Source of the DNA: Oscillospiraceae bacterium
Lineage (GTDB): Bacteria; Bacillota; Clostridia; Oscillospirales; Oscillospiraceae
Assembly (NCBI GenBank): GCA_015067605.1
Contig: SVME01000012.1
Coordinates: 1 to 33,069 of the forward strand
Length of the DNA stretch: 33,069 nucleotides
Reading direction: 5' to 3'
The first letter of the stretch is position 1. Each line of letters opens with the position of its first letter. The translations under genes and the position numbers were made by a program. Below, piece by piece: positions 19,458 through 32,913 of the stretch. The notes under the pieces are model-generated. The model did no database searches and was not told the DNA's origin. It saw only the letters and a program-made list of their open reading frames with translations.

Positions 19458-22400
19458 TCAATTCAGGGTCTTTTCTGCTTCTGATAGCGCGCAGATGCCG
19501 TTGCTGTCTACCGCAATGGTTCCGGTGGATTGGGCGTAGGCCAGTGCGTTTTCCAGCGCAACGGTCACGTTTCCACCCAGACGGGCGTAGCCCAGTAGCT
19601 TCACCGTCTGCCGCAGCAGATCTTCACGGGACATACTGAGCTGCTCGCTGAGTACATGCCGCAGACCATTGGCCAGCTCCTGCACAGCTACCTCACGAAT
19701 ATCCCGTTTCACATCGCCGTTGCAACGGAATCCGTCATATACCTCCGGTCCTTGGTCGGGCAGCCAGTAGAAGATGTGTTCTTCCTGCGTGGTTGTGGGT
19801 AACGCCATGGCGGATAGAATCGTTTCCATGTGGGTTTGGATTTTGCCTGTGGCACGGGAAATGCCAAAGCTCTGCACTACTGTTTTGATGAGTCGATCTT
19901 GGCGTACCGGTGCTTCTTGGAGCAGCACCTGATGGATGCGCCCACGAATCTGCAGACGGAAGGCACCGGACAAAAACTCTTCCGGTTCCAGTGCTACGGT
20001 CGCAAAGGATGTAGCAGTGTAGACCTCCGGCTCCTCCGGTTCCTCTGGCACTATTGTGGGCGTTGGTTCCGGAGTGGATGCTTCCGGCTCGGGGGAGGGG
20101 ACATCAGGGCCTTCTGCGCGCAGTCGCTCCAGCTCACGCAGAATGCGTCCCAACTCTTTTTCGGTGTTGTCCCACCAATCCATAGACCAAACCCGTATCA
20201 GGTTCCATCCCAGTCCGGTCAGAACACTCATCTGGGCAATCTCACGGTCACGGGTGGTTTTGGCGGTGCCGTAGCTGTCGCCATCCAGAAGAATGCCCAG
20301 TAGATAACGCTCCGGATCCTCCGGATCCACCACGCCGATATCGATGCGGTATTCCGAGCGTCCTACCCGTAAATCTGTTTGATAGCCCTCAGCTTGCAGT
20401 GCCCTGCAAATTCGCTGGGCAATACCGCTGGGCTGGAAGCTTCGACGGACAGTGCGCTCCGGTTCCGGCAACGGCTTGCCGCCGGCGTATTCTAGAAATC
20501 CCTTCAAAGCCGCCACGCCCTCCGCAGAGGTCTTGGACAAATTGATTTGATCCGGCTTCAGGGTGGCGTAAACCACCATTTCCTGCCTTGCACGGGAGAT
20601 GGCAACGTTCAGTCGCCGCCAGCCGCCGTCACGGTTCAGGGGCCCAAAATTCATGTACACCTTACCACTCTCATCCGGACCGTAGCCGATGGAGAATAGG
20701 ATCACATCCCGTTCATCACCCTGAACGTTTTCCAGATTCTTGATGAATACCGGTTCTGCGGATTCGTAAACCCATTTTTCCAGTGTTGGATCTGTGGCGC
20801 AGGCGGCGGTCAGCAGATCGTCGATAAGATGCTGCTGATTGACGTTGAAGGTCACCACACCCACACTCTGACCGGATAGCTCCGAATCATAACAACGACG
20901 CTTCAATTCTTCTACCACAGCCTCCGCTTCTGCCCGATTCTGGCGGCTCTTACCCCGGTCGAATACGCCATCTACGTTGACCAGCCGCACCTTGGATGCA
21001 CGGTCGTTGACGGAGGGGAAGGTGAATAGCTTGCTGTCGTAGAAACGGTTGTTGCTGTAAGCAATCAGACTTTCATGACGGCTGCGGTAGTGCCATAGCA
21101 GATGGGTCTGGGGCATATTCATAGCCAAACAATCATCCAGAATGCTCTCCAAATCCTCTGTATCCAGCGCCTCCTCGTCGGTGGAGTTGGTAGCGAAGAA
21201 GGCGGTGGGGGGCATCTGCTTGGGATCGCCTACAATTACGGCTTCCTGTCCCCGAGCCAGCGCACCCACTGCCTTGCAGGTAGGCATCTGGGAAGCCTCG
21301 TCGAATACCACCAGATGAAACGGTTCTCGCTTGGGATCCAGATATTGAGCAGCGGAAATGGGGCTCATCAGCATACAGGGGCACAAACGAGGCAGCAGCT
21401 CCGGTATCTGCTCGAAGAGCTTGCGAATGCTCTGTCCACGACCGCCGCTGCGAATGGCACGTTGAAGAATGCCCACCTCCGAGCTGTGAGCTGCTTCCTT
21501 GGTAAAGTTTGGAATCCGGCTGGCCAGCCGGCAGTAGATTTCCTGACGGGTCAGTGCTGTCAGTTCTTTGTCCAGACGCTTAAATTGTTCTATTTTTTCG
21601 TTAAACTGAGCGCCGGAGAAGGTGTTCAGCACCGGTGCGGCCTCAATTGCCAGCATGGCCAGCGACTGATAGCAGGCCTTCTCGTAGGCGGGCAGAATCT
21701 GTTCATGACCCATGCCGTTCATATAGGCATCTACAATCGAACCCAAATCCAGCGCCCGTGCTTCGTCAGCCAATGCGCTCCAGAGAATCCATTCTTTCAG
21801 TTGGTCAGCGTGGGCTGTAATCTCATCCAGCAACGCCAACTGGTCGTCCAGTCGCTCTGGATTTGCTGCCGACGGGGAGATTTGCAAAGCCGTCAGGAAG
21901 GCGGCTCTGGCTTGCTCCGCCCCTGCCCATGCCTGATTCATGGCCTGGATCTGAGGTTGGAGGGACTGCACACCGGCGCAGCGTAGACGAATGCTGTCTG
22001 CCCGATATTCTTCGATTAGCCGCTTGGCGCTCTTGATGGCTCGCTGTACCCATTCTACGATGGCCTGCCAGTCAATCTGGCCATTCTGCGCCAAAATCTC
22101 CAGCCCCACGCCGTATTGCGCCAACAGGCTTTGGGCAGCGGCACTCTCACGCTGATACAAAGACAGTCTGTCCAGATGCCGGAACAAATCCTCCTTGGGC
22201 ACAGATTCCTTTGCCCATGCCTGAAGCCGTTTGGAGAAGCTGTTCTTGCCCAGTGCCTTGGGAAGGAACCATTTTTCAGAGATGTTCTTGTATTCCTCCG
22301 CCAGTGCGGCACCGTTTTGGGAAAGGAAATCTTCCTTCCAGCATTGTGTCAGCCAATCCCGATGGGCTTGCGCCATAAGATGATGCTGCGCCAGCTCCAG

Positions 22401-25187
22401 TACACCTTTGAGGTGCTTGCCAAGTTCCGCACATTCAGCCCATTCTCTGGGCAGCTTTAGCCACAGCTCCAGCTCCTGCCCGATGGCACTGAGTCGTTCA
22501 ATGCCGGTTTTTGTGGATGATGATTCTTCGCCGATGGCGGCAGCGAATTCCTCCACCACAGTACCAAGCCGCTCCAGCGACTGCCGGTACGCCGCTACGG
22601 ATTCTCGTAGGGCATTGCGCAGAGTCTGAGAGTATTGCTTGCAGCCAATCACCGCAAGGGGATGGTGCGCGGGATGCCCCACAGCCTTAGCCGCCCCAAT
22701 CAGCCGTTCTACCATGGTGTGCTGTTTTTCCAGACGATTTTTGTCGATGGCTTGGGCTTGTTGACGGGTAAATAGCCGGATATCATCGGCGGAGCGTACC
22801 AGCTCATAGCTGTCGATTAGTTGAAAAAGGCTTTTTCCACAGGGCTGCGCCTGATGCAGCGCCTGGGCATAGCCATCCAGATCCTTGCGGTTGACGCTGA
22901 TTTGCTCCGCCTTGGCGGCGAAGGCTTCGGGGGACATTTGCTTTGTGACCTCGGTGGCGCGGCGAAGCTGCTCCAGAACGTTCTTTTTCTTGGATTTGTT
23001 GGAGTGAAGCTCCAGACAGAAGGAGCCCAACCCCATATTTTCCAGACGCTTTTGCACAACCTCCAGCGCGGCCATCTTTTCGGCCACAAACAGCACGGTT
23101 TTCTCCTGTGCCAGCGCATTTGCAATCAGACCGGTGATGGTCTGGGACTTGCCGGTGCCAGGAGGGCCGTGGAGTACAAAGCTTTCTCCGTTGCAGGCAG
23201 CCTGAATGGCAAAAAGCTGTGAAGCATCTGCCGCCATGGGTAGCAACACATCACTCTCAGGGACAGTGGAGCCGATTTTCATATCCGTAGCGTCCCACGC
23301 CAGTTTACCATCAATGAGGCTCCGGACAATTTTGCTGCGCTGCAGATCCTCACACCGGTTACGGATATCATTCCACATTACGAATTGTGAGAAGGAGAAT
23401 ATACCAAGGTAGGCTGATTCCAGTGTGTCCCAACGCTTCTGAGACATCACCGCTTTGCGTAGAATGGTCAGCACACGGCGCACATCGATGCCGTGTTCGT
23501 CCTGAGGCAGAGGGTCCAGCCCTTCCACAGTGATGCCGGAGTCCTGCTTCAGCTTTTCCAGCATGGTGATGTTCATCTGGGGTTCTTCGTCACGAAGACG
23601 AATCACATACCCCTGTGCGGCAGATTTGCGAAGAATATCCACCGGTACCAGCATAATAGGTGCGTAGCGAGCCTTGGTGGAGCGGTCAGTTTCGTACCAC
23701 CGAAGCAAGCCCAGTGCTAGATATAGTGTGTTGGCACCGTTTTCCTCCAGAGCTGTCCGAGCATTGCGGTATAGATCTTTGATGGTTTTGCCCAGCTCTG
23801 CGTCGGTGTAAATGGTGCGTAGACGACGGTTTCCAAATTCCGACTGGATTACCGATGCGGCTGTGCCCAAATCGTGCATGGTGTCGAAGCAGGTTTCCTT
23901 CACCGGCCAGTCGCTGGGACGGGAGAGAATGGAAAAATCCTTTCCATCCGAAAGGGCATTCTCCAAATCATCCAGAGAGGTGGTCATGATGGGGAGGATG
24001 GTTTTGGTCAATCGCATGTTAATTAGTTGATTGCGAAGCCCCAAATCCAGTAGTTTCCGCTCCCATTGGGTCTGCCGAGTGGCAGGTGATGCGTTTGCGA
24101 TGCAGTCGATGTGAACCTTCTCTTCCAGTGGAGCAGGTGCATCGGAAATTTGCCTACGGGGCAGGGGAACGTTTTCAATACGCCAGCCGCTGTCTGTGGG
24201 GATTCGCAGAGGCAGCGGTGTAATACCACTGAGCCGAGAACGCCGCACATCTATGAAATACTCGATATCCGATAGCTCCTTTGCGGCACACTGCATAGCG
24301 CTATCGAAGTCAGCATCCTTTCCGTCGGTAAATAGGGTGCATTCTACCACGGCGATTTCGTTGACACCCTTGGCCAGCCGCTTGGTCAGCAAGGAGCTAT
24401 CGTCCTGAACCGCCTCGGGGAAGGTTTGATCTTCCAGCCACACACCGGCGAAGATGTGCCCCTCTTTCAGAATCAGCAACGGATGCAAGCCGGCAGCCTC
24501 AAGGCATCCGGCGTATAGCAGCGTCAAGTCCAAACAGGTGCCCAGCTTTTGCTGCATCACGCCGTCGCATAGCCGCACCCGCTGTCCCACAGCCTCAAAG
24601 CTGGCAGGCGGCATGGCGTAGCGAATCCGTTGCTCCTGCAAGGCGGCGTAAATAGCACCGGCCTGTGCCAGAGCCCGATTGCTGTCGCCGGTCTGATACC
24701 CGTCTATGGACGGGTCGGCGGTCCATTGTCCCAGATAGTCAGCGCTGCGGGCGATGATATTGATGATTTCCGGATGGTTGGGGGTGACGAATGCAGTGAG
24801 CAACTCTGGATAGTAGCCGCAGCCCTGCCACTCGTCAAAGGCCAGCGCCGTAACAGGGTAATCCTGTGCGTAAAGAATCTGCCCATCCCGTTCGATGGAG
24901 AAATGCAAATTTGCCTGAATCTTTTCGGTTAACTCCCCCAGAAAAGCTACATCCAGAACAGGATTGATATCGTCAAGCCTGCAAGCGGTGGCAGCGGGCA
25001 GAAGATCGATGTGCCGTTGATAGGGCAGACAGATAGCGGGACTGGCGGTGATTCTCAGTTCCAAGTCCTCCAGCACATCGCCGTCGTTGATCAGCGTGAT
25101 TTCCTGAATCATCTTCACACGGTTCTGCTGGAGCGCATAGTTCACCACCGGAGTCAAAGTGATATCAAAACGCAGTGTTCTCTCCAT
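19458..25187 (-). CDS. Large SF1 helicase with Vsr/MTES_1575-like nuclease region (DUF4011/DUF3320-type architecture)
   Basis: Walker A HGPPGTGKSQTITGLIANAL, Walker B VVFDEASQMP, GDPKQMPP, WHYRSRHESLIAYSN, NVQGDERDVILFSIGYGPD, LNVAISRARQEMVVYATL; then RIDIGVVDPEDPERYLLGILLDGDSY...RDREIAQMSVLTGLGWNLIRVWSMDWW nuclease-like segment and a C-terminal region resembling DUF3320. Confidence 0.85.
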   Translation of the reverse strand: MERTLRFDITLTPVVNYALQQNRVKMIQEITLINDGDVLEDLELRITASPAICLPYQRHIDLLPAATACRLDDINPVLDVAFLGELTEKIQANLHFSIERDGQILYAQDYPVTALAFDEWQGCGYYPELLTAFVTPNHPEIINIIARSADYLGQWTADPSIDGYQTGDSNRALAQAGAIYAALQEQRIRYAMPPASFEAVGQRVRLCDGVMQQKLGTCLDLTLLYAGCLEAAGLHPLLILKEGHIFAGVWLEDQTFPEAVQDDSSLLTKRLAKGVNEIAVVECTLFTDGKDADFDSAMQCAAKELSDIEYFIDVRRSRLSGITPLPLRIPTDSGWRIENVPLPRRQISDAPAPLEEKVHIDCIANASPATRQTQWERKLLDLGLRNQLINMRLTKTILPIMTTSLDDLENALSDGKDFSILSRPSDWPVKETCFDTMHDLGTAASVIQSEFGNRRLRTIYTDAELGKTIKDLYRNARTALEENGANTLYLALGLLRWYETDRSTKARYAPIMLVPVDILRKSAAQGYVIRLRDEEPQMNITMLEKLKQDSGITVEGLDPLPQDEHGIDVRRVLTILRKAVMSQKRWDTLESAYLGIFSFSQFVMWNDIRNRCEDLQRSKIVRSLIDGKLAWDATDMKIGSTVPESDVLLPMAADASQLFAIQAACNGESFVLHGPPGTGKSQTITGLIANALAQEKTVLFVAEKMAALEVVQKRLENMGLGSFCLELHSNKSKKKNVLEQLRRATEVTKQMSPEAFAAKAEQISVNRKDLDGYAQALHQAQPCGKSLFQLIDSYELVRSADDIRLFTRQQAQAIDKNRLEKQHTMVERLIGAAKAVGHPAHHPLAVIGCKQYSQTLRNALRESVAAYRQSLERLGTVVEEFAAAIGEESSSTKTGIERLSAIGQELELWLKLPREWAECAELGKHLKGVLELAQHHLMAQAHRDWLTQCWKEDFLSQNGAALAEEYKNISEKWFLPKALGKNSFSKRLQAWAKESVPKEDLFRHLDRLSLYQRESAAAQSLLAQYGVGLEILAQNGQIDWQAIVEWVQRAIKSAKRLIEEYRADSIRLRCAGVQSLQPQIQAMNQAWAGAEQARAAFLTALQISPSAANPERLDDQLALLDEITAHADQLKEWILWSALADEARALDLGSIVDAYMNGMGHEQILPAYEKACYQSLAMLAIEAAPVLNTFSGAQFNEKIEQFKRLDKELTALTRQEIYCRLASRIPNFTKEAAHSSEVGILQRAIRSGGRGQSIRKLFEQIPELLPRLCPCMLMSPISAAQYLDPKREPFHLVVFDEASQMPTCKAVGALARGQEAVIVGDPKQMPPTAFFATNSTDEEALDTEDLESILDDCLAMNMPQTHLLWHYRSRHESLIAYSNNRFYDSKLFTFPSVNDRASKVRLVNVDGVFDRGKSRQNRAEAEAVVEELKRRCYDSELSGQSVGVVTFNVNQQHLIDDLLTAACATDPTLEKWVYESAEPVFIKNLENVQGDERDVILFSIGYGPDESGKVYMNFGPLNRDGGWRRLNVAISRARQEMVVYATLKPDQINLSKTSAEGVAALKGFLEYAGGKPLPEPERTVRRSFQPSGIAQRICRALQAEGYQTDLRVGRSEYRIDIGVVDPEDPERYLLGILLDGDSYGTAKTTRDREIAQMSVLTGLGWNLIRVWSMDWWDNTEKELGRILRELERLRAEGPDVPSPEPEASTPEPTPTIVPEEPEEPEVYTATSFATVALEPEEFLSGAFRLQIRGRIHQVLLQEAPVRQDRLIKTVVQSFGISRATGKIQTHMETILSAMALPTTTQEEHIFYWLPDQGPEVYDGFRCNGDVKRDIREVAVQELANGLRHVLSEQLSMSREDLLRQTVKLLGYARLGGNVTVALENALAYAQSTGTIAVDSNGICALSEAEKTLN

Positions 25188-25652: not shown

Positions 25653-25810
25653 TCACTCGCTTTCGTTTTTGTTTATCATAGCATAGTATAAACTGTTTTT
25701 CAACAAAAAAGCCCTGCTTGGTGCAGATTACCGTAGCGAAAAATCATATAATTACGAGAATACCATTGTCCCGTTCAAAGAATAGTGGTATAATATTAGG
25801 GGTGATTAAA

Positions 25811-26323
25811 ATGAAAATAAGGAAAACGGTCTGTTTAGCATACTTGATGATCATCTGTTGCTTGCTGTGCGCCTGCGATCCTGGATCTTACTCGATTGAC
25901 CGAGCGGCGTTGGATAACGTCGTTAGCGTTGAACTGATTGAATATAAAAACCCAGACCAAAAACATTTTGCCACTTGGGTATCGAATCAGTTTGATAAGC
26001 TAGCCCCGTTTGATTCGGCCAATGCTACGGTTCTTGAAACATTGCCTGCGGAAAAAATGGATGACTTTTTGGATGCATTTTCAAAAACAGACATACTTGC
26101 GTCCTACTATGCGTACGACTCCCCAAAGGGCATTTGCCTGCGACTCAATTATGCAAACGATAATTTCCTGATTATTTGGGCGAACTACGCAGAGGATAAG
26201 CATTCCGGCTACATCGGGGAATATTCATCAGACGGAACCGTTTTGTCTTTCTGGGGTTCTTTCAGTGCTTTGAGAGATTATGAGGATTTGGTGAATCAAT
26301 ATTTTTCACATAGCTTGCCGTAA
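25811..26323 (+). CDS. Putative lipoprotein
   Basis: MKIRKTVCLAYLMIICCLLCACDPGSYS signal peptide with lipobox-like LCAC. Confidence 0.7.
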   Translation: MKIRKTVCLAYLMIICCLLCACDPGSYSIDRAALDNVVSVELIEYKNPDQKHFATWVSNQFDKLAPFDSANATVLETLPAEKMDDFLDAFSKTDILASYYAYDSPKGICLRLNYANDNFLIIWANYAEDKHSGYIGEYSSDGTVLSFWGSFSALRDYEDLVNQYFSHSLP

Positions 26324-26327
26324 GAAT

Positions 26328-26382
26328 AAGTACGCCCCTTCCAGCCTTCCTGCATGAGAGGAAGGCTGGAAGGGGCGTGCTT
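26328..26382. repeat. Long inverted repeat (~25-bp stem) downstream of the lipoprotein gene
   Basis: aagtacgccccttccagccttcct-gcatgag-aggaaggctggaaggggcgtgctt. Confidence 0.8.
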
Positions 26383-26462: not shown

Positions 26463-26720
26463 TTATGCCAATGGCATAGCGAAGTAGGGGTGGTTGAACC
26501 TTGCCGGACTTGTTTTGGGGATGTCAGCAAAGTATTCCAGAATCTCAATCTTCAGTACATCCACATCCAAAGTATTCTGCGATTGTGCAAGAAACTTGTC
26601 GATGTACTTTTTGTAGTCGCTCAGCGTTCTCTCACGGACTTTCTGAGCCTTTTTCAGGGCGAGAAATTCATTAGCAACCTCTCGCAGCGTGCGGTCATCG
26701 CAGACCATTTTCATTCGCAT
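26463..26720 (-). pseudogene. Truncated tyrosine recombinase/integrase (N-terminal core-binding domain only)
   Basis: CDDRTLREVANEFLALKKAQKVRERTLSDYKKYIDKFLAQSQNTLDVDVLKIEILEYFADIPKTSPARFNHPYF resembles a phage integrase SAM-like domain; no catalytic domain follows. Confidence 0.65.
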
Positions 26721-26810
26721 AATCTACACCTCACAATTTGTCAAAACCGTAGGCCTAGAAGATGTTTTTGGCTCTTCCGAAATCCGTATTTCTAACTTTT
26801 TGACAAACAA

Positions 26811-26845
26811 AAAAGGGAATTTACAAGTAAAACTTGTAAATTCCC
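26811..26845 (-). terminator. Intrinsic terminator next to a tRNA-like 3' end
   Basis: Minus strand gggaatttacaagt-ttt-acttgtaaattccctttttt. Confidence 0.8.
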
Positions 26846-26852
26846 AATCTTG

Positions 26853-26879
26853 GCAGGGGCACTAGGACTTGAATTCTCG
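26853..26879 (-). other. tRNA-Trp-like 3' end; possible att site remnant
   Basis: Minus strand GAATTCAAGTCCTAGTGCCCCTGCCA resembles T-arm plus acceptor 3' strand and CCA of a tRNA-Trp; no 5' half found nearby. Confidence 0.5.
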
Positions 26880-27195: not shown

Positions 27196-29493
27196 TCAAG
27201 ATTCTAGCTCAAGGTATCCAGCATTGAGTGAATGATCCAAGCAAGACGAAATACCATTCATATTTGAGCCCATAATGGTCACCATAAATCTGGCCCTTGA
27301 TATTGCTAAATAAAGCATATTATATGCTGAGTACATAATAAAATGCTTCGAAATGTCGCTCGTTCCAGATGTTTGAGGCACTCGTCCCTCATCTACGCCA
27401 ATCAGGATTACCCCTTGAAACTCAAGACCGTTAATCGAAAAAGGAGATGCAAGCGTCAATTTTGTACAATCGCGTTCGTCACCTTGATCCAATACATTAA
27501 ATTGTCTTCCGGTTTGCTTTTCAAGCATTGCTACCCCTTCTTGGGAAAGCCACTTTTCATCAAAGGAAATTATCGCAATATCGCTCAGGCGACACTGCAA
27601 GGTTTTTACAAACTTACCTACTACTTGGCCTAGGTTGCCTATCAATCTGTCATCATTATCGTACATGTGCAGCTTTGGACGCTCAGCTTTCTCTTCATCG
27701 CTGCTTGTAAAGCAATACTGGGGATTATTATAAGGATTAGAAAACGTAGTTCCAAACATTAGCGTTCCTGAAGCAGCTATGGATGCACACAGTTCAGCAA
27801 TTTGCGGACTGCTTCTGAATACAGTTTGGAGGTTCTTAGATTCTGGTGTTCCAAATGCTTTTTCGGAGATATAGTCTGCACTTACATCTCCCTGATCTCC
27901 GATAGCCTGTGCATAGTCCAACGCAAAGCAAATCGGAATCTCTTTTACAGTAGGATTCTTCGTCAGAAAGTGAAACACACTTTGTTCATTGATGTTAAAC
28001 AAATGCACTTCATCTGCGAAAATATAATCAAACCCTTCATTTACACGCTCTCTACGCCAAATGGGGGCATTTAATCTCGAAAGTGCTTCCATTGTAACAT
28101 CATCAACATCAAACGTACCATAATCTTGCAAGCCTTTTTGATAATCCAAGAAAATCGAGAATACGAATTCCTTGTCTGCTTTTGTTACACAAGGAATACC
28201 ATTCTCAATAGATTTAATGTCATAATAGCTTTCTATAGTACAATCTGTCCGCCCTTTAATTTGAACGCTAAACTCATGCTGAAGCATATTATACAAAACT
28301 TGTTTATGCGTTTTTTCCTCACAAAACAAATCCTGCACCCCTTGGCTAATAATCGGGAAGTATGTTTTCAGTCTCTTGCTAGAAATCGCTTTCTGAACCG
28401 ACTCGTGAATCAACATCAGCTGATAATTCTTTGATTCAAGTGCATCCGCTTCCAGGAGCATACTATCTGCAATCCTTGCAAAACGACTACAAAAAGACAT
28501 TAGTGTTTCGAAGCGAATTGACTGTGCAGAATTAGGATCCAAGAAACGTGCATAATCATCATAATAAGAGAACAGTTCCTTGTTACGGACCGATGTTGAT
28601 TCACTATGAGCAAAAAAGGCTATTTTAAATGGCTTCCCTTCGCACTCTTTTTGTTTCAACAGTTTGTATGCACGCATTATCATCGAAATAGTTTTGCCGG
28701 TACCCGCAGCCCCTTCAATGCGAAGTGGCGTATCGAGCGAAGCATAGTCAACAATAGCACGTTGCGAATCTGTCAGCATCTGGTACTGCCTGTCAATCCC
28801 CCAATAAATAAAATCACTTCTTTCCTCGAGAGATGTTGATTCTACCAGTTCAAGAGCCTGCGTGCGTGCTGTATTATCTTGTGTCTGAATGCCTATATGT
28901 TTACTAATCAGCAGACGATACGTAGATGCATACACTTCCCCAGCTTCTCTCAAAATAGAAGTATCAACGACATCTTTCACTTGAGAGGGTTCCTCTGCAT
29001 TATATTTATATGCTAATAAGGGGTGATCTATTCCTCTGTTTGTTAATCTAAGGACTGTATTTGATCTTTCAATGACAATCCGAGAGTGATCCGGTTGGGG
29101 GAATGGGAACAAAATGGATTTTGTCTCATAGTATCTCTCCGACAGCGAAAACGGGTGTCGATCCCATATTTTCAATGCCAAACGTAAGGTTTTTTGAATC
29201 AGGGTTAATAGTCTGGCAGGATTCTCTCTTTCAATCATTATGTTGCATTGCTCTAGATCAATGCAAAAAATGCGGGCACCCTTTTGTGAGTTATCTTGTT
29301 CTTTTTTTAGTCCAACAAACTGTATGCCACTAGAACAATAATCCACTACTGTATTATGGAATTGCTCACTCTGGAGTTCGCCGCATATATGTTGAACAAA
29401 CCTTCTACCTTCACCATATTCCACACTTTGCAATTGTGTATCTGCTATATATGTAGAAATAGCACTTTGATCAAAAAGCAAATACTTAATCAT
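27196..29493 (-). CDS. UvrD-like SF1 helicase with unassigned N-terminal region
   Basis: Walker A RIEGAAGTGKTISMIMRAY, Walker B FDYIFADEVHLFN, CFALDYAQAIGD, TVFRSSPQIAELC, SINGLEFQGVILIGVDEGRVPQ, YNMLYLAISRARFMVTIMGS. Start taken at MIKYLLFDQ (29493), forming ATGA with the upstream stop. Confidence 0.85.
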   Translation of the reverse strand: MIKYLLFDQSAISTYIADTQLQSVEYGEGRRFVQHICGELQSEQFHNTVVDYCSSGIQFVGLKKEQDNSQKGARIFCIDLEQCNIMIERENPARLLTLIQKTLRLALKIWDRHPFSLSERYYETKSILFPFPQPDHSRIVIERSNTVLRLTNRGIDHPLLAYKYNAEEPSQVKDVVDTSILREAGEVYASTYRLLISKHIGIQTQDNTARTQALELVESTSLEERSDFIYWGIDRQYQMLTDSQRAIVDYASLDTPLRIEGAAGTGKTISMIMRAYKLLKQKECEGKPFKIAFFAHSESTSVRNKELFSYYDDYARFLDPNSAQSIRFETLMSFCSRFARIADSMLLEADALESKNYQLMLIHESVQKAISSKRLKTYFPIISQGVQDLFCEEKTHKQVLYNMLQHEFSVQIKGRTDCTIESYYDIKSIENGIPCVTKADKEFVFSIFLDYQKGLQDYGTFDVDDVTMEALSRLNAPIWRRERVNEGFDYIFADEVHLFNINEQSVFHFLTKNPTVKEIPICFALDYAQAIGDQGDVSADYISEKAFGTPESKNLQTVFRSSPQIAELCASIAASGTLMFGTTFSNPYNNPQYCFTSSDEEKAERPKLHMYDNDDRLIGNLGQVVGKFVKTLQCRLSDIAIISFDEKWLSQEGVAMLEKQTGRQFNVLDQGDERDCTKLTLASPFSINGLEFQGVILIGVDEGRVPQTSGTSDISKHFIMYSAYNMLYLAISRARFMVTIMGSNMNGISSCLDHSLNAGYLELES

Positions 29494-30422
29494 TTTGTCA
29501 CCTCCGTATAACATCTTGTAATAACATCTGAATAATCCTTTTGAGTTGGATTGTCGATCCCAATGCGAATAAACGCATTAGAGAACCTTTGCATCAGATG
29601 CTCACACCAGGGCGACTGAATCACGCCCTCAATTGCTACATAATCAGAATCATCGTTAAGCCAATAATTTGTCGATAACCGTCTATTCTCATGAATACCA
29701 CTTAGCATCCGATCTATTTCTTGTTGGATACCTGTATTTACCACATCAATCATATCTTCGGGAGATGGAAGTTTGGGGAGAACCTGATAGTCAATACCAG
29801 GAGACTTGATCATTTCTGCATCTTTTATAGACAATTTCCCGATTTCAAGCAAATCAACGATAAGGCCTTTATTGTATACCGAATTCTGTAAATATGCGTG
29901 TTGGGGTAAATAATAGTAATGATTTCTGTCCCCTTTGTCTATTCTCGTGAGTTCTTCTATTGAAGGTCTAGGTTTTCTCTTTATAGCCTCACTCCTATGC
30001 ATATCAGTCATATCTTTTCTAATAAAAATGTAGTATTCCTTTATTCTGCTTAACAAACTATCGACTTTTCCAGTTTGTTTTTTATTCCCAGAATACTCGA
30101 TCCGTTTTTGGGAAATAACTGTTTCCAAATCACTTCTGCTTAATGAGATTAGGACATCACCATTTAAGTCAATTTCACTTGCCATAGAAGAAATGCCGTT
30201 TCTTAGATTCTGAATTATTTCCCGATAAACAATATTATATCCGTGTTCCGTACAAAACCAATCTGAAGCGTCCACCGCAACCAAGAAATAGTACTTAGGT
30301 ACTTTCTTCTGTGCAATATCGCACCTAGCAGTAATAATTACAGCATAACACGGGATGGTTGGGTATTTTGAGGAACGAACTCCATAAATAACTGTACCTT
30401 GGTCAATTGAGAAACTATTCAT
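29490..30422 (-). CDS. Uncharacterised 310-aa protein, coupled to the downstream SF1 helicase
   Basis: Single long ORF MNSFSIDQGTVIYGVRSSKYPTIPCYAVIITARCDIAQKKVPKYYFLVAVDASDWF...; stop overlaps the helicase start as ATGA. Confidence 0.8.
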   Translation of the reverse strand: MNSFSIDQGTVIYGVRSSKYPTIPCYAVIITARCDIAQKKVPKYYFLVAVDASDWFCTEHGYNIVYREIIQNLRNGISSMASEIDLNGDVLISLSRSDLETVISQKRIEYSGNKKQTGKVDSLLSRIKEYYIFIRKDMTDMHRSEAIKRKPRPSIEELTRIDKGDRNHYYYLPQHAYLQNSVYNKGLIVDLLEIGKLSIKDAEMIKSPGIDYQVLPKLPSPEDMIDVVNTGIQQEIDRMLSGIHENRRLSTNYWLNDDSDYVAIEGVIQSPWCEHLMQRFSNAFIRIGIDNPTQKDYSDVITRCYTEVTK

Positions 30423-30734
30423 TCTATCTATACTCCTCGACTGAACTGATATTTACAAGTAACTACAAGGAACTATAACATATTTTTGACATTATTCTAC
30501 CCCAAAAATTCTAAAATGTAAATACAATCCATTTCAAATATCAACCTTAAGTTTAATAATAACGATATTTTACTTATAATAAGAGTTCACCTTTCAATAA
30601 CAATCTACAACAACACATTGGTTGCATCATTCCCTGCAACCGTTTTATGCATCCTCTATAATTCATCCCGAATTATTTATCCTATAACTCTATTGTTTCT
30701 GAATGGATGCAAATCTAATGTCATATGGTTTTCG

Positions 30735-30775
30735 TGCAAAAGCGGTGCCCGAAACCGAGCACCGCTTTTGCCTAT
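30735..30775 (-). terminator. Intrinsic terminator of the excisionase-like gene
   Basis: gcaaaagcggtgc-ccgaaaccga-gcaccgcttttgc. Confidence 0.75.
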
Positions 30776-30778
30776 GGA

Positions 30779-30970
30779 CTAGATGATCGCATTCTTCATT
30801 CGACGTTCAATCCACCGGTCGAGGTCTCCGGGCCGCACATAGCGCCGTCCGTTCGCTTTGAAGGACGGAAAACCCGGAGATTTAATCAGCTTGTACACGC
30901 TCGATCTGCTACATGAAAAAATCCGCTGCAAATCATCAGTCGTGTAAAGCTCAGCACAAATCTTACACAT
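30779..30970 (-). CDS. Helix-turn-helix excisionase-like protein
   Basis: YTTDDLQRIFSCSRSSVYKLIKSPGFPSFKANGRRYVRPGDLDRWIERR, typical of AlpA/Xis-like helix_turn_helix_17 proteins. Confidence 0.8.
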   Translation of the reverse strand: MCKICAELYTTDDLQRIFSCSRSSVYKLIKSPGFPSFKANGRRYVRPGDLDRWIERRMKNAII

Positions 30971-31080: not shown

Positions 31081-31147
31081 GTATAAAGAAAACCACCGGC
31101 AGTGCCGGTGGTTCTAAAAAGCTTTAGCTATGCATAGAAAAAATATC

Positions 31148-31206
31148 CTCCTTAAGTTATAGTGATGGTGGTCTGCCAACCGCCATCACAGAACTTAAGG
31201 AGGAAT
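31148..31206 (+). promoter_or_regulatory. 5'UTR hairpin that would sequester the tnpA ribosome-binding site
   Basis: tcctccttaagtt ... aacttaaggagga; the right arm is the Shine-Dalgarno just upstream of the tnpA ATG. Confidence 0.75.
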
Positions 31207-31215
31207 CAAGTCCAG

Positions 31216-31692
31216 ATGAAACTTGACACTAATAGTTTAGCACACACGAAGTGGGAATGCAAATATTATATCGTATTCGCTCCAAAATATCGTCGTCAGA
31301 TTATCTACGGCAAAATTAAAGCGGATATAGGTCAAATGCTTAGAAAGCTATGCGAGTATAAGGGAATCGAGATAATAGAAGCGGAAGCGTGCAAGTATCA
31401 CATCCATATGCTCGTATCAATCCCACCCAAGTATAGTGTAGCACAGATTATGGGCTATCTCAAAGGAAAGAGCAGCCTAATGATCTTCGAGAAGTACGCC
31501 AATCTCAAGTACAAGTATGGTAACCGGCATTTCTGGTGCCGGGGATATTATGTGAGTACAGTAGGCGCTAATAAGAAGGCCATACAGGAGTACATCCGAA
31601 ATCAGCTACAGGAAGATTATTCCGACGACCAAATGAGTATAAAAGAGTATGTCGACCCGTTCACGGGTCAGCCGGTAAAAGAGGGCAAATAA
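31216..31692 (+). CDS. tnpA: IS200/IS605 family transposase TnpA (Y1 HUH)
   Basis: KWECKYYIVFAPKYRRQIIYG, ACKYHIHMLVSIPPKYSVAQIMGYLKGKSS, FWCRGYYVSTVGANKKAIQEYIRNQ. Confidence 0.95.
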   Translation: MKLDTNSLAHTKWECKYYIVFAPKYRRQIIYGKIKADIGQMLRKLCEYKGIEIIEAEACKYHIHMLVSIPPKYSVAQIMGYLKGKSSLMIFEKYANLKYKYGNRHFWCRGYYVSTVGANKKAIQEYIRNQLQEDYSDDQMSIKEYVDPFTGQPVKEGK

Positions 31693-31827
31693 ACAAAAGC
31701 CCCTTTAGGGGCAGCCCGTGAAATCTGCGCGGTTGGCAGACTTTTCGGCGAGCCTATAGGCTCAGCCCAGGGCATGCCCCAAGGGGGCTAGTGCATACCA
31801 CCGGCACGGCCGGTGGTTATGATTCCA

Positions 31828-32913
31828 TCATTTTATATACCCCATCTTCTTCAGGTACGACAGATAGCGTTGGAGCTGAACATCAATCATGTCATCGGAG
31901 TTTACGAAGTCAATAAATTCTGCTTCGCTGATCCATTTGTAGGATACGGTTTCGCCTTCCTGGAGTGTGATTGAATTCTTGTCACAGTCGGTGACGCAGA
32001 GGAAGGTTTCATAAATCGTATTGTGAGATACGAAGCGTCCAATGCTTGTGAGATTGCCAGACCGGATGCCAGTTTCTTCCCACAGTTCTCGCTTGGCGCA
32101 GAAATATGCATCCTCGCCTTTCAGGGCAGATCCGCCAGCGGTGGCTTCAAAGAAACCGCCGTAGTTGGGTTTCCGGTGATCCCGCTGCATCAGCAGATAG
32201 TCGCCATCGATATGCCGAACAAGAACCTCGCTGACTAGATGATACAGTCCATCAGGAATCGGTTCACCCCGAACCAAATTACAACCAGCGAGGGTGCCAT
32301 CAGTATGATAGGCATCCCAGATTTCCTTAGAGTGCCAATAATCCACCCATGCCATAACCTTTTGTCCCAATTTCTCCGGGGTCAGGTCATCCACATCCAG
32401 CACATCCACATCCGAGCGGCCAAGGAACCACGCCTTTTTCAGCGGCAGGAAGTGCTGCAAGTAATGGTCAAAGAAATTCCGGGAACGGGTGGAATCGTTT
32501 TGTTTGTTCCTGCGCAGGGTTTCTAATGACGCATTTAGAAATAGAATCCGGTCGGGCATACACGCTTTCACAGCATCCAGCTCCGGTTTCAGCGCATCGG
32601 CTACGTCCCAGTCCATACCGATGGTTTTGGGATAATTCAGAGTATAAAACTCAATCTCCTCTGCACCGAAGTCCATGACTGTGCAGGGATATTGCCGTGC
32701 CTTCTCCCAACGCTGAACTTCTTTGCCAAGCCACAGCCGCTGAATTTCCAGATAGTCCTCATATTTGTTCTTGTCCAGATTTCTCGCTTTGATTTGGGCA
32801 ATCACATCAGAATTATCCTCATAGCTAATGTGGATCTCCGGGGCGTGTTCCTGTAAGTAACGGACTGCAGTGGTCTTTCCAACAGCCATGCAGCCTTGAA
32901 GTGAGAGTATCAT
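31828..32913 (-). CDS. Fusion of P-loop (d)NMP/nucleoside kinase-like domain with NUDIX hydrolase
   Basis: N-terminal Walker A LQGCMAVGKTTAVRYL; C-terminal NUDIX box GSALKGEDAYFCAKRELWEETGI. Confidence 0.85.
   Translation of the reverse strand: MILSLQGCMAVGKTTAVRYLQEHAPEIHISYEDNSDVIAQIKARNLDKNKYEDYLEIQRLWLGKEVQRWEKARQYPCTVMDFGAEEIEFYTLNYPKTIGMDWDVADALKPELDAVKACMPDRILFLNASLETLRRNKQNDSTRSRNFFDHYLQHFLPLKKAWFLGRSDVDVLDVDDLTPEKLGQKVMAWVDYWHSKEIWDAYHTDGTLAGCNLVRGEPIPDGLYHLVSEVLVRHIDGDYLLMQRDHRKPNYGGFFEATAGGSALKGEDAYFCAKRELWEETGIRSGNLTSIGRFVSHNTIYETFLCVTDCDKNSITLQEGETVSYKWISEAEFIDFVNSDDMIDVQLQRYLSYLKKMGYIK

Follow-up and report, generated by a model that had tools for sequence, protein, structure and literature searches.

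A conserved Cys-Asp protein coupled to a UvrD-like helicase: a candidate two-gene anti-phage system on mobile DNA

An AT-rich island of an Oscillospiraceae genome carries two overlapping genes, one for a UvrD-like helicase and one for a 310-aa partner protein, which raises the question of whether the pair is a defence system and, if so, of which kind. We analysed the window, i.e. the whole 33,069-nucleotide stretch of contig SVME01000012.1, together with relatives of both proteins in other genomes, plasmids and phages. Both genes are located on the minus strand, the partner gene first (29490..30422, 310 aa in the ORF list) and the helicase gene behind it (27196..29493, 765 aa), and the stop codon of the former and the start codon of the latter share the tetranucleotide ATGA (29490..29493; junction TACGGAGGTGACAAAATGATT). 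This two-gene unit and its overlap had been proposed in an earlier note made from the letters of the window; both ORFs and the ATGA are present in the sequence, and a 4-nt overlap was also observed in seven of the 12 relatives measured. A ribosome-binding site, GGAGGTG, lies within the 3' end of the partner gene, 5 nt before the start codon of the helicase (ATG at 29493). The program-made ORF list begins the helicase at the first ATG, 29514 (772 aa); the 765-aa version appears to have the better start because of the ATGA overlap, the GGAGGTGACAAAATG preceding its ATG and the alignment with the starts of its relatives. The AT-rich intergenic region 5' of the pair (30423..30778, GC content ~36–37%) presumably contains its promoter.

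The flanks described in the earlier note, namely an integrase remnant with a tRNA-like attachment site on one side and an excisionase-like gene and an IS200 element on the other, were all recovered, and the island itself has a GC content of 36–41% compared with ~55% to its left. On this left side, an exact 23-nt copy of the 3' end of tRNA-Trp including CCA (TTCAAGTCCTAGTGCCCCTGCCA, 26851..26873, minus strand) constitutes an attachment-site remnant that bounds the island, and a tyrosine integrase remnant of 85 aa (26463..26720, minus strand) retains the N-terminal SAM-like domain only (PF14659, E-value 0.0012). The 390-bp stretch with the integrase N-terminus and the tRNA-Trp end (26484-26873) recurs in six genomes of the same genus with 83–94% identity, directly downstream of an intact tRNA-Trp; the integrase is sometimes truncated in these copies, and one of them has a 308-aa ORF. 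Because of this recurrence, tRNA-Trp seems to serve repeatedly as an integration site in the genus. The intact tRNA-Trp of the genome under study is located on its contig 86, where it adjoins a full 404-aa integrase. On the right side, a 63-aa excisionase/AlpA-like HTH_17 protein (30779..30970, minus strand; PF12728, 2e-12; phrog_66 excisionase, 3.7e-7) is probably encoded by a mobile-element gene outside the two-gene core, and the plasmid and phage relatives that we read have no HTH_17 gene annotated as an immediate neighbour of the pair. The IS200-type transposase gene (31162..31692, plus strand) lies between hairpin palindromes (inverted repeats 31091-31112 and 31797-31818) and is a neighbour outside the system. 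In an empty-site comparison, genome G425 retains nothing but the right flank (94% identity) and the same-genus genomes retain the integrase-attachment stretch beside the intact tRNA-Trp, so that no exact insertion boundary on the right followed from it.

The larger protein is a UvrD/PcrA/Rep-like SF1 helicase with intact motor motifs, in agreement with its earlier classification. It matches Pfam UvrD-helicase (PF00580) with 2.4e-9 and 37.7 bits against a cut-off of 23 bits, and UvrD_C with 0.0017, which is under the Pfam cut-off. The Walker A motif GAAGTGKT at residue 261, motif II DEVHLF at 494, motif IV VFRSS at 558 and motif VI ISRA at 731 are present, and the motor motifs are largely invariant in the alignment of its relatives. 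The predicted structure is of low confidence (pLDDT 68.6, pTM 0.43); its best Foldseek matches in the PDB are PcrA, UvrD and Rep helicases (1e-13 to 1e-10, with PcrA at 2.5e-13). The motor occupies approximately residues 240–745 and is preceded by an N-terminal domain of ~230 aa (residues 1–235), for which the searches returned no match and no nuclease signature. The assignment of this domain to PD-(D/E)XK nucleases was rejected, as the alignment of the relatives contains no conserved D...ExK.

For the partner protein, the copies of Pfam, NCBIfam, PHROGs and PADLOC searched gave no family match, a PDB sequence search was likewise empty, and the protein has no recognised catalytic fold. Judged by its relatives in 13 other lineages, it represents a conserved family of its own, in which a Cys-Asp pair is invariant. 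The residues Q8, G9, A32, C34, D35, Q278 and G288 are invariant in a 13-member alignment, and the family signature can be written as 'QG-x-I ... TARCD ... SPxxEHLMQxFxNxFxRIG' with a helical insert. In the AlphaFold model (pLDDT 73, pTM 0.66), strands at residues 10–15, 25–29, 43–51, 169–198 and 263–268 are interrupted by a helical block at 59–162, which is variable among the relatives, and the closing helix carries SPWCEHLMQRFSNAFIRIG. The earlier statement that the partner has no OLD or TOPRIM motif holds in the profile searches, which gave no TOPRIM/OLD match and set the protein apart as a separate undescribed family.

Is the pairing itself conserved? In all 14 lineages with a readable gene upstream of the helicase, the partner comes first and lies within −14 to +8 nt of it, and the pairing is conserved across phyla; its recurrence in 14 lineages exceeds chance. 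Besides another Oscillospiraceae genome (52% and 58% identity for the partner and helicase relatives, respectively), the pair was identified in the Klebsiella P2-like phage MK416015 and a viral-contig relative of it, on plasmids of E. coli, Klebsiella and Shigella, in Paraburkholderia, Azoarcus, Rhizobium and Undibacterium, in two divergent Agrobacterium lineages and on four further viral contigs (L014, L016, L017 and L023). In Rhizobium and Undibacterium, the helicase gene is disrupted or split, and three helicases that lack a visible partner begin at the end of a contig (L020, L022 and L089). Two short matches (L006 and L007, 41% identity over 37 aa), located among phage structural genes, were discarded as chance. 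Of 297 relatives, only the genome under study has an intact copy, and ~400 genomes of the Bacillota yielded no further full match; such rarity is as expected of horizontal cargo. Among E. coli, 120 of 5426 genomes have a DNA match (~2% of complete genomes), exclusively on plasmids, including ColV and NDM plasmids, and 109 of these 120 matches cover at least 80% of the pair. The copies on IncF plasmids are found among insertion sequences with no clear defence island.

The guess of the earlier note that the pair serves in defence was drawn from the context of one island, and it gains support from the neighbourhoods of the relatives, where recurrence in defence loci was counted by inspection. In phage MK416015, the pair is inserted between the portal gene and a 683-aa gene that takes the place of gpA, the identity of the latter being assigned from position. 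The portal-gpA interval of P2 is a defence hotspot where old and tin lie (Rousset et al., PMC9122126). Two viral contigs, L014 and L017, are P4-like satellites by appearance: in both, an integrase adjoins the pair and a primase bears a zinc ribbon of the phage type, the primase of L014 being a full D5-type helicase-primase. On contig L016, GmrSD_N and HEPN_RiboL-PSP genes adjoin the pair. Multiubiquitin and ThiF genes, which we take to belong to candidate ubiquitin-like defence operons, adjoin the pair on three plasmids, two of Agrobacterium and one of Undibacterium (L010, L012 and L134). The Agrobacterium loci also have a DUF6527 gene and a UvrD/PDDEXK helicase, and the Undibacterium locus a WYL gene. 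The pair is thus recurrently located in defence loci.

A profile search with the partner family also matched compact proteins of ~180 aa (176–196 aa), which are remote homologues of the partner. The alignment of the two families covers the C-terminal half of the partner with an hhalign probability of 98.3% and a score of 97.6, compared with 18.7 for the best of 40 column-shuffled alignments. The QGDI and CDL motifs occur in the same order in both families, as seen in a second alignment that is weaker and, taken alone, falls short of significance. Unlike the partner, the compact proteins have no helical insert, have other neighbour genes and are not accompanied by a helicase. Members include L093:1069-1620, L094:1063-1593, L097:5144-5716, L118:4962-5540 and L121:1498-2088. 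Their operons are sporadic and found near restriction-modification and Abi genes: compact proteins adjoin TIGR04255 proteins with a small gene between, one is encoded beside hsdM (L096), one beside AbiJ_NTD3/Abi_C on a Methylocystis plasmid (L118), and others follow two other small genes (L095 and L123). A locus considered as a second pair (L025) was dismissed after its weak match (E-value 8e-4) led to a compact-family protein. The partner's domain was also recognized in the C-terminal half of a 325-aa protein (L122:961-1938 and L124; hhalign probability 94%), the gene for which follows GHKL/HATPase genes, an ORF resembling DNA glycosylases and another that contains DLFCGAGG, the signature motif of C5 DNA methylases. 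The N-terminal part of this protein looks receiver-like by eye. In those of the compact and 325-aa proteins that were scanned, no Pfam family covered the partner-type domain. The signature of the wider family is QG-x-I ... C-D ... SP/RE-x-x-Q-x-F-x-x-x-x-R-I/V-G.

Could the pair be a divergent member of a helicase system that has already been described, such as Gabija, Helicase+DUF2290, Nhi or AbiO? The profile search for known systems placed the pair in none of them, and we consider membership very improbable. Two of the outcomes that the earlier note named as refuting its proposal, a placement in a known system and a lack of conserved pairing, thus did not occur. The helicase core does give weak matches to the PADLOC models of GajB, RTasHel and AbiO, and its motor aligns with DUF2290-linked helicases; all of these matches reflect the shared UvrD core and leave the N-terminal domain unaligned. 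The best GajB model reaches 1.9e-12 and 44.6 bits, its best stretch comprising only residues 438–574, as is expected for any UvrD-type helicase. The comparison with Gabija made in the earlier note stands as an analogy of layout, since both are sporadic and mobile two-gene units with a UvrD-like SF1 helicase, and does not extend further. GajA is an OLD-type ATPase-TOPRIM nuclease about twice the size of the partner described here, which is unrelated to it by any profile used, and the helicase differs from GajB by its 230-aa N-terminal extension. Assignment to Gabija was rejected on the grounds that the defining nuclease GajA is absent and the partner has no Pfam, PADLOC or NCBIfam match. A likeness in architecture is also offered by Helicase+DUF2290, described from P4-like satellites (Rousset et al. 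2022, PMC9122126). Both have a UvrD-type helicase with an N-terminal extension (~700–720 aa in the DUF2290 loci) and a closely coupled small partner; however, the helicase gene comes first in three such loci (L042-L044), whereas the partner gene is first here. The helicases are alike only in the motor (25–33 bits; hhalign probability 98%). PF10053 (DUF2290) was detected neither in the genome under study nor in any partner homologue, and the partner profile gave an hhalign probability of 0.2% against three DUF2290 proteins. With an unrelated partner profile and a reversed gene order, this assignment was rejected as well. A helicase with a small partner is thus a known layout, and the partner family is without description in the sources searched; the literature search, which largely left subscription papers outside and could therefore miss a report, returned no description of the pair or of TIGR04255 partners.

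Two further explanations ascribe other activities to the pair. It could act in the manner of a toxin-antitoxin or abortive infection module, in which the helicase would restrain or trigger the partner, and the latter would be an RNase of the MazF/PemK type that contains a helical insert. A Foldseek search of the PDB with the partner model gives MazF/PemK proteins as all of its top 33 matches (E-values 0.16–1.5), PemK-like proteins recur among the matches in a viral library, and the order QG(D/T)I ... VIIT-x-x-CD resembles the GDI ... VLI-x-x-ND layout of MazF. Against this, no match passes an E-value of 0.001, the partner profile compared with 40 MazF sequences yielded an hhalign probability of 1.3% (the result of an earlier run was no different from those of shuffled controls), the family has no conserved Arg like the catalytic one of MazF, and the partner is nearly three times longer than MazF/PemK proteins. 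Membership in the MazF family is accordingly not supported by the profiles, the predicted MazF-like fold is kept as a lead only, and the toxin-like reading appears improbable. A less remote alternative, which we nevertheless regard as unlikely, is that the pair has no role in immunity and helps plasmids, prophages and satellites to replicate, recombine or persist. Its carriers are indeed for the most part mobile DNA, helicases of the UvrD/Rep/PcrA type take part in rolling-circle replication and in repair, and the E. coli copies on IncF plasmids are located ~3 kb from partition genes. However, only a few members of each element type possess the pair (2 of 50,697 phage records, both of the same phage, and 92 of 72,556 plasmids), which is the distribution of cargo, and the element types concerned are unrelated. 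In addition, IS1 occupies the partner's place 5' of the helicase in one E. coli plasmid, and the repeated defence-gene neighbours and the P2 hotspot position also speak against maintenance.

We therefore favour, as a probable explanation inferred from association, that the two genes constitute a system against phages or mobile elements which moves horizontally. It occurs on prophages, satellites and plasmids and repeatedly in defence loci, and the remote relatives of the partner are encoded beside hsdM, AbiJ/Abi_C, TIGR04255 genes and GHKL-ATPase genes with a DLFCGAGG methylase-like ORF; on the other side, mobile elements also carry genes that are not for defence. In such a system, the partner and the helicase would form a complex in which the SF1 helicase serves as sensor or motor. 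By analogy with GajB in Gabija, the helicase may engage DNA ends, forks or recombination intermediates from an invading phage, and its ATP-driven loading or translocation would switch on or deliver the partner as an effector or adaptor. This division of roles is suggested because the helicase is intact, the insert of the partner is variable and the partner core recurs with other genes. Our most likely guess for the partner is a nucleic-acid-acting role around the invariant C34-D35. More tentatively, and with doubt outweighing confidence, the partner may be one of an undescribed family of effectors or adaptors in immunity, used in at least three kinds of modules (with a UvrD-like helicase, of the TIGR04255 type and with a GHKL-ATPase) and sharing a Cys-Asp-centred chemistry.

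If the defence reading is true, an unnamed defence system that the databases searched would miss is present in ~2% of complete E. coli genomes, for instance on ColV and resistance plasmids, and also in gut Bacillota, in P4-like satellites and in a P2-like phage. The partner would open a family that is also found beside other defence genes, so that one structure or mutant series of an E. coli or Klebsiella copy could explain several systems, and the natural E. coli versions, such as the plasmid-borne WP_039052447.1 with the gene upstream of it, make the pair directly testable in laboratory strains.

Several other genes of the window deserve mention. At a distance of 2 kb from the pair and in host-like GC content, a 1909-aa DUF4011/AAA_11/AAA_12/MTES_1575 helicase-nuclease is encoded at 19458-25187 (minus strand), which matches the NCBIfam model NF058533 'anti-phage protein ProA' with 2056 bits against a cut-off of 1500, as well as PADLOC PDC-S37. 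This ProA-type gene is a probable second defence gene near the pair. A 201-aa ORF at 25718-26323 (plus strand) carries a signal resembling that of lipoproteins, LMIICCLLCAC, and matches no family; behind it lies a strong hairpin of 24 bp (26328-26382). At 31828-32913 (minus strand), a kinase-like P-loop domain is fused to a NUDIX domain. The 94% identity of this gene to genome G425 ends at position 32335, at about the domain joint, and in genome G487 its halves align to different positions of a single contig, which may point to a recent domain fusion or fission.
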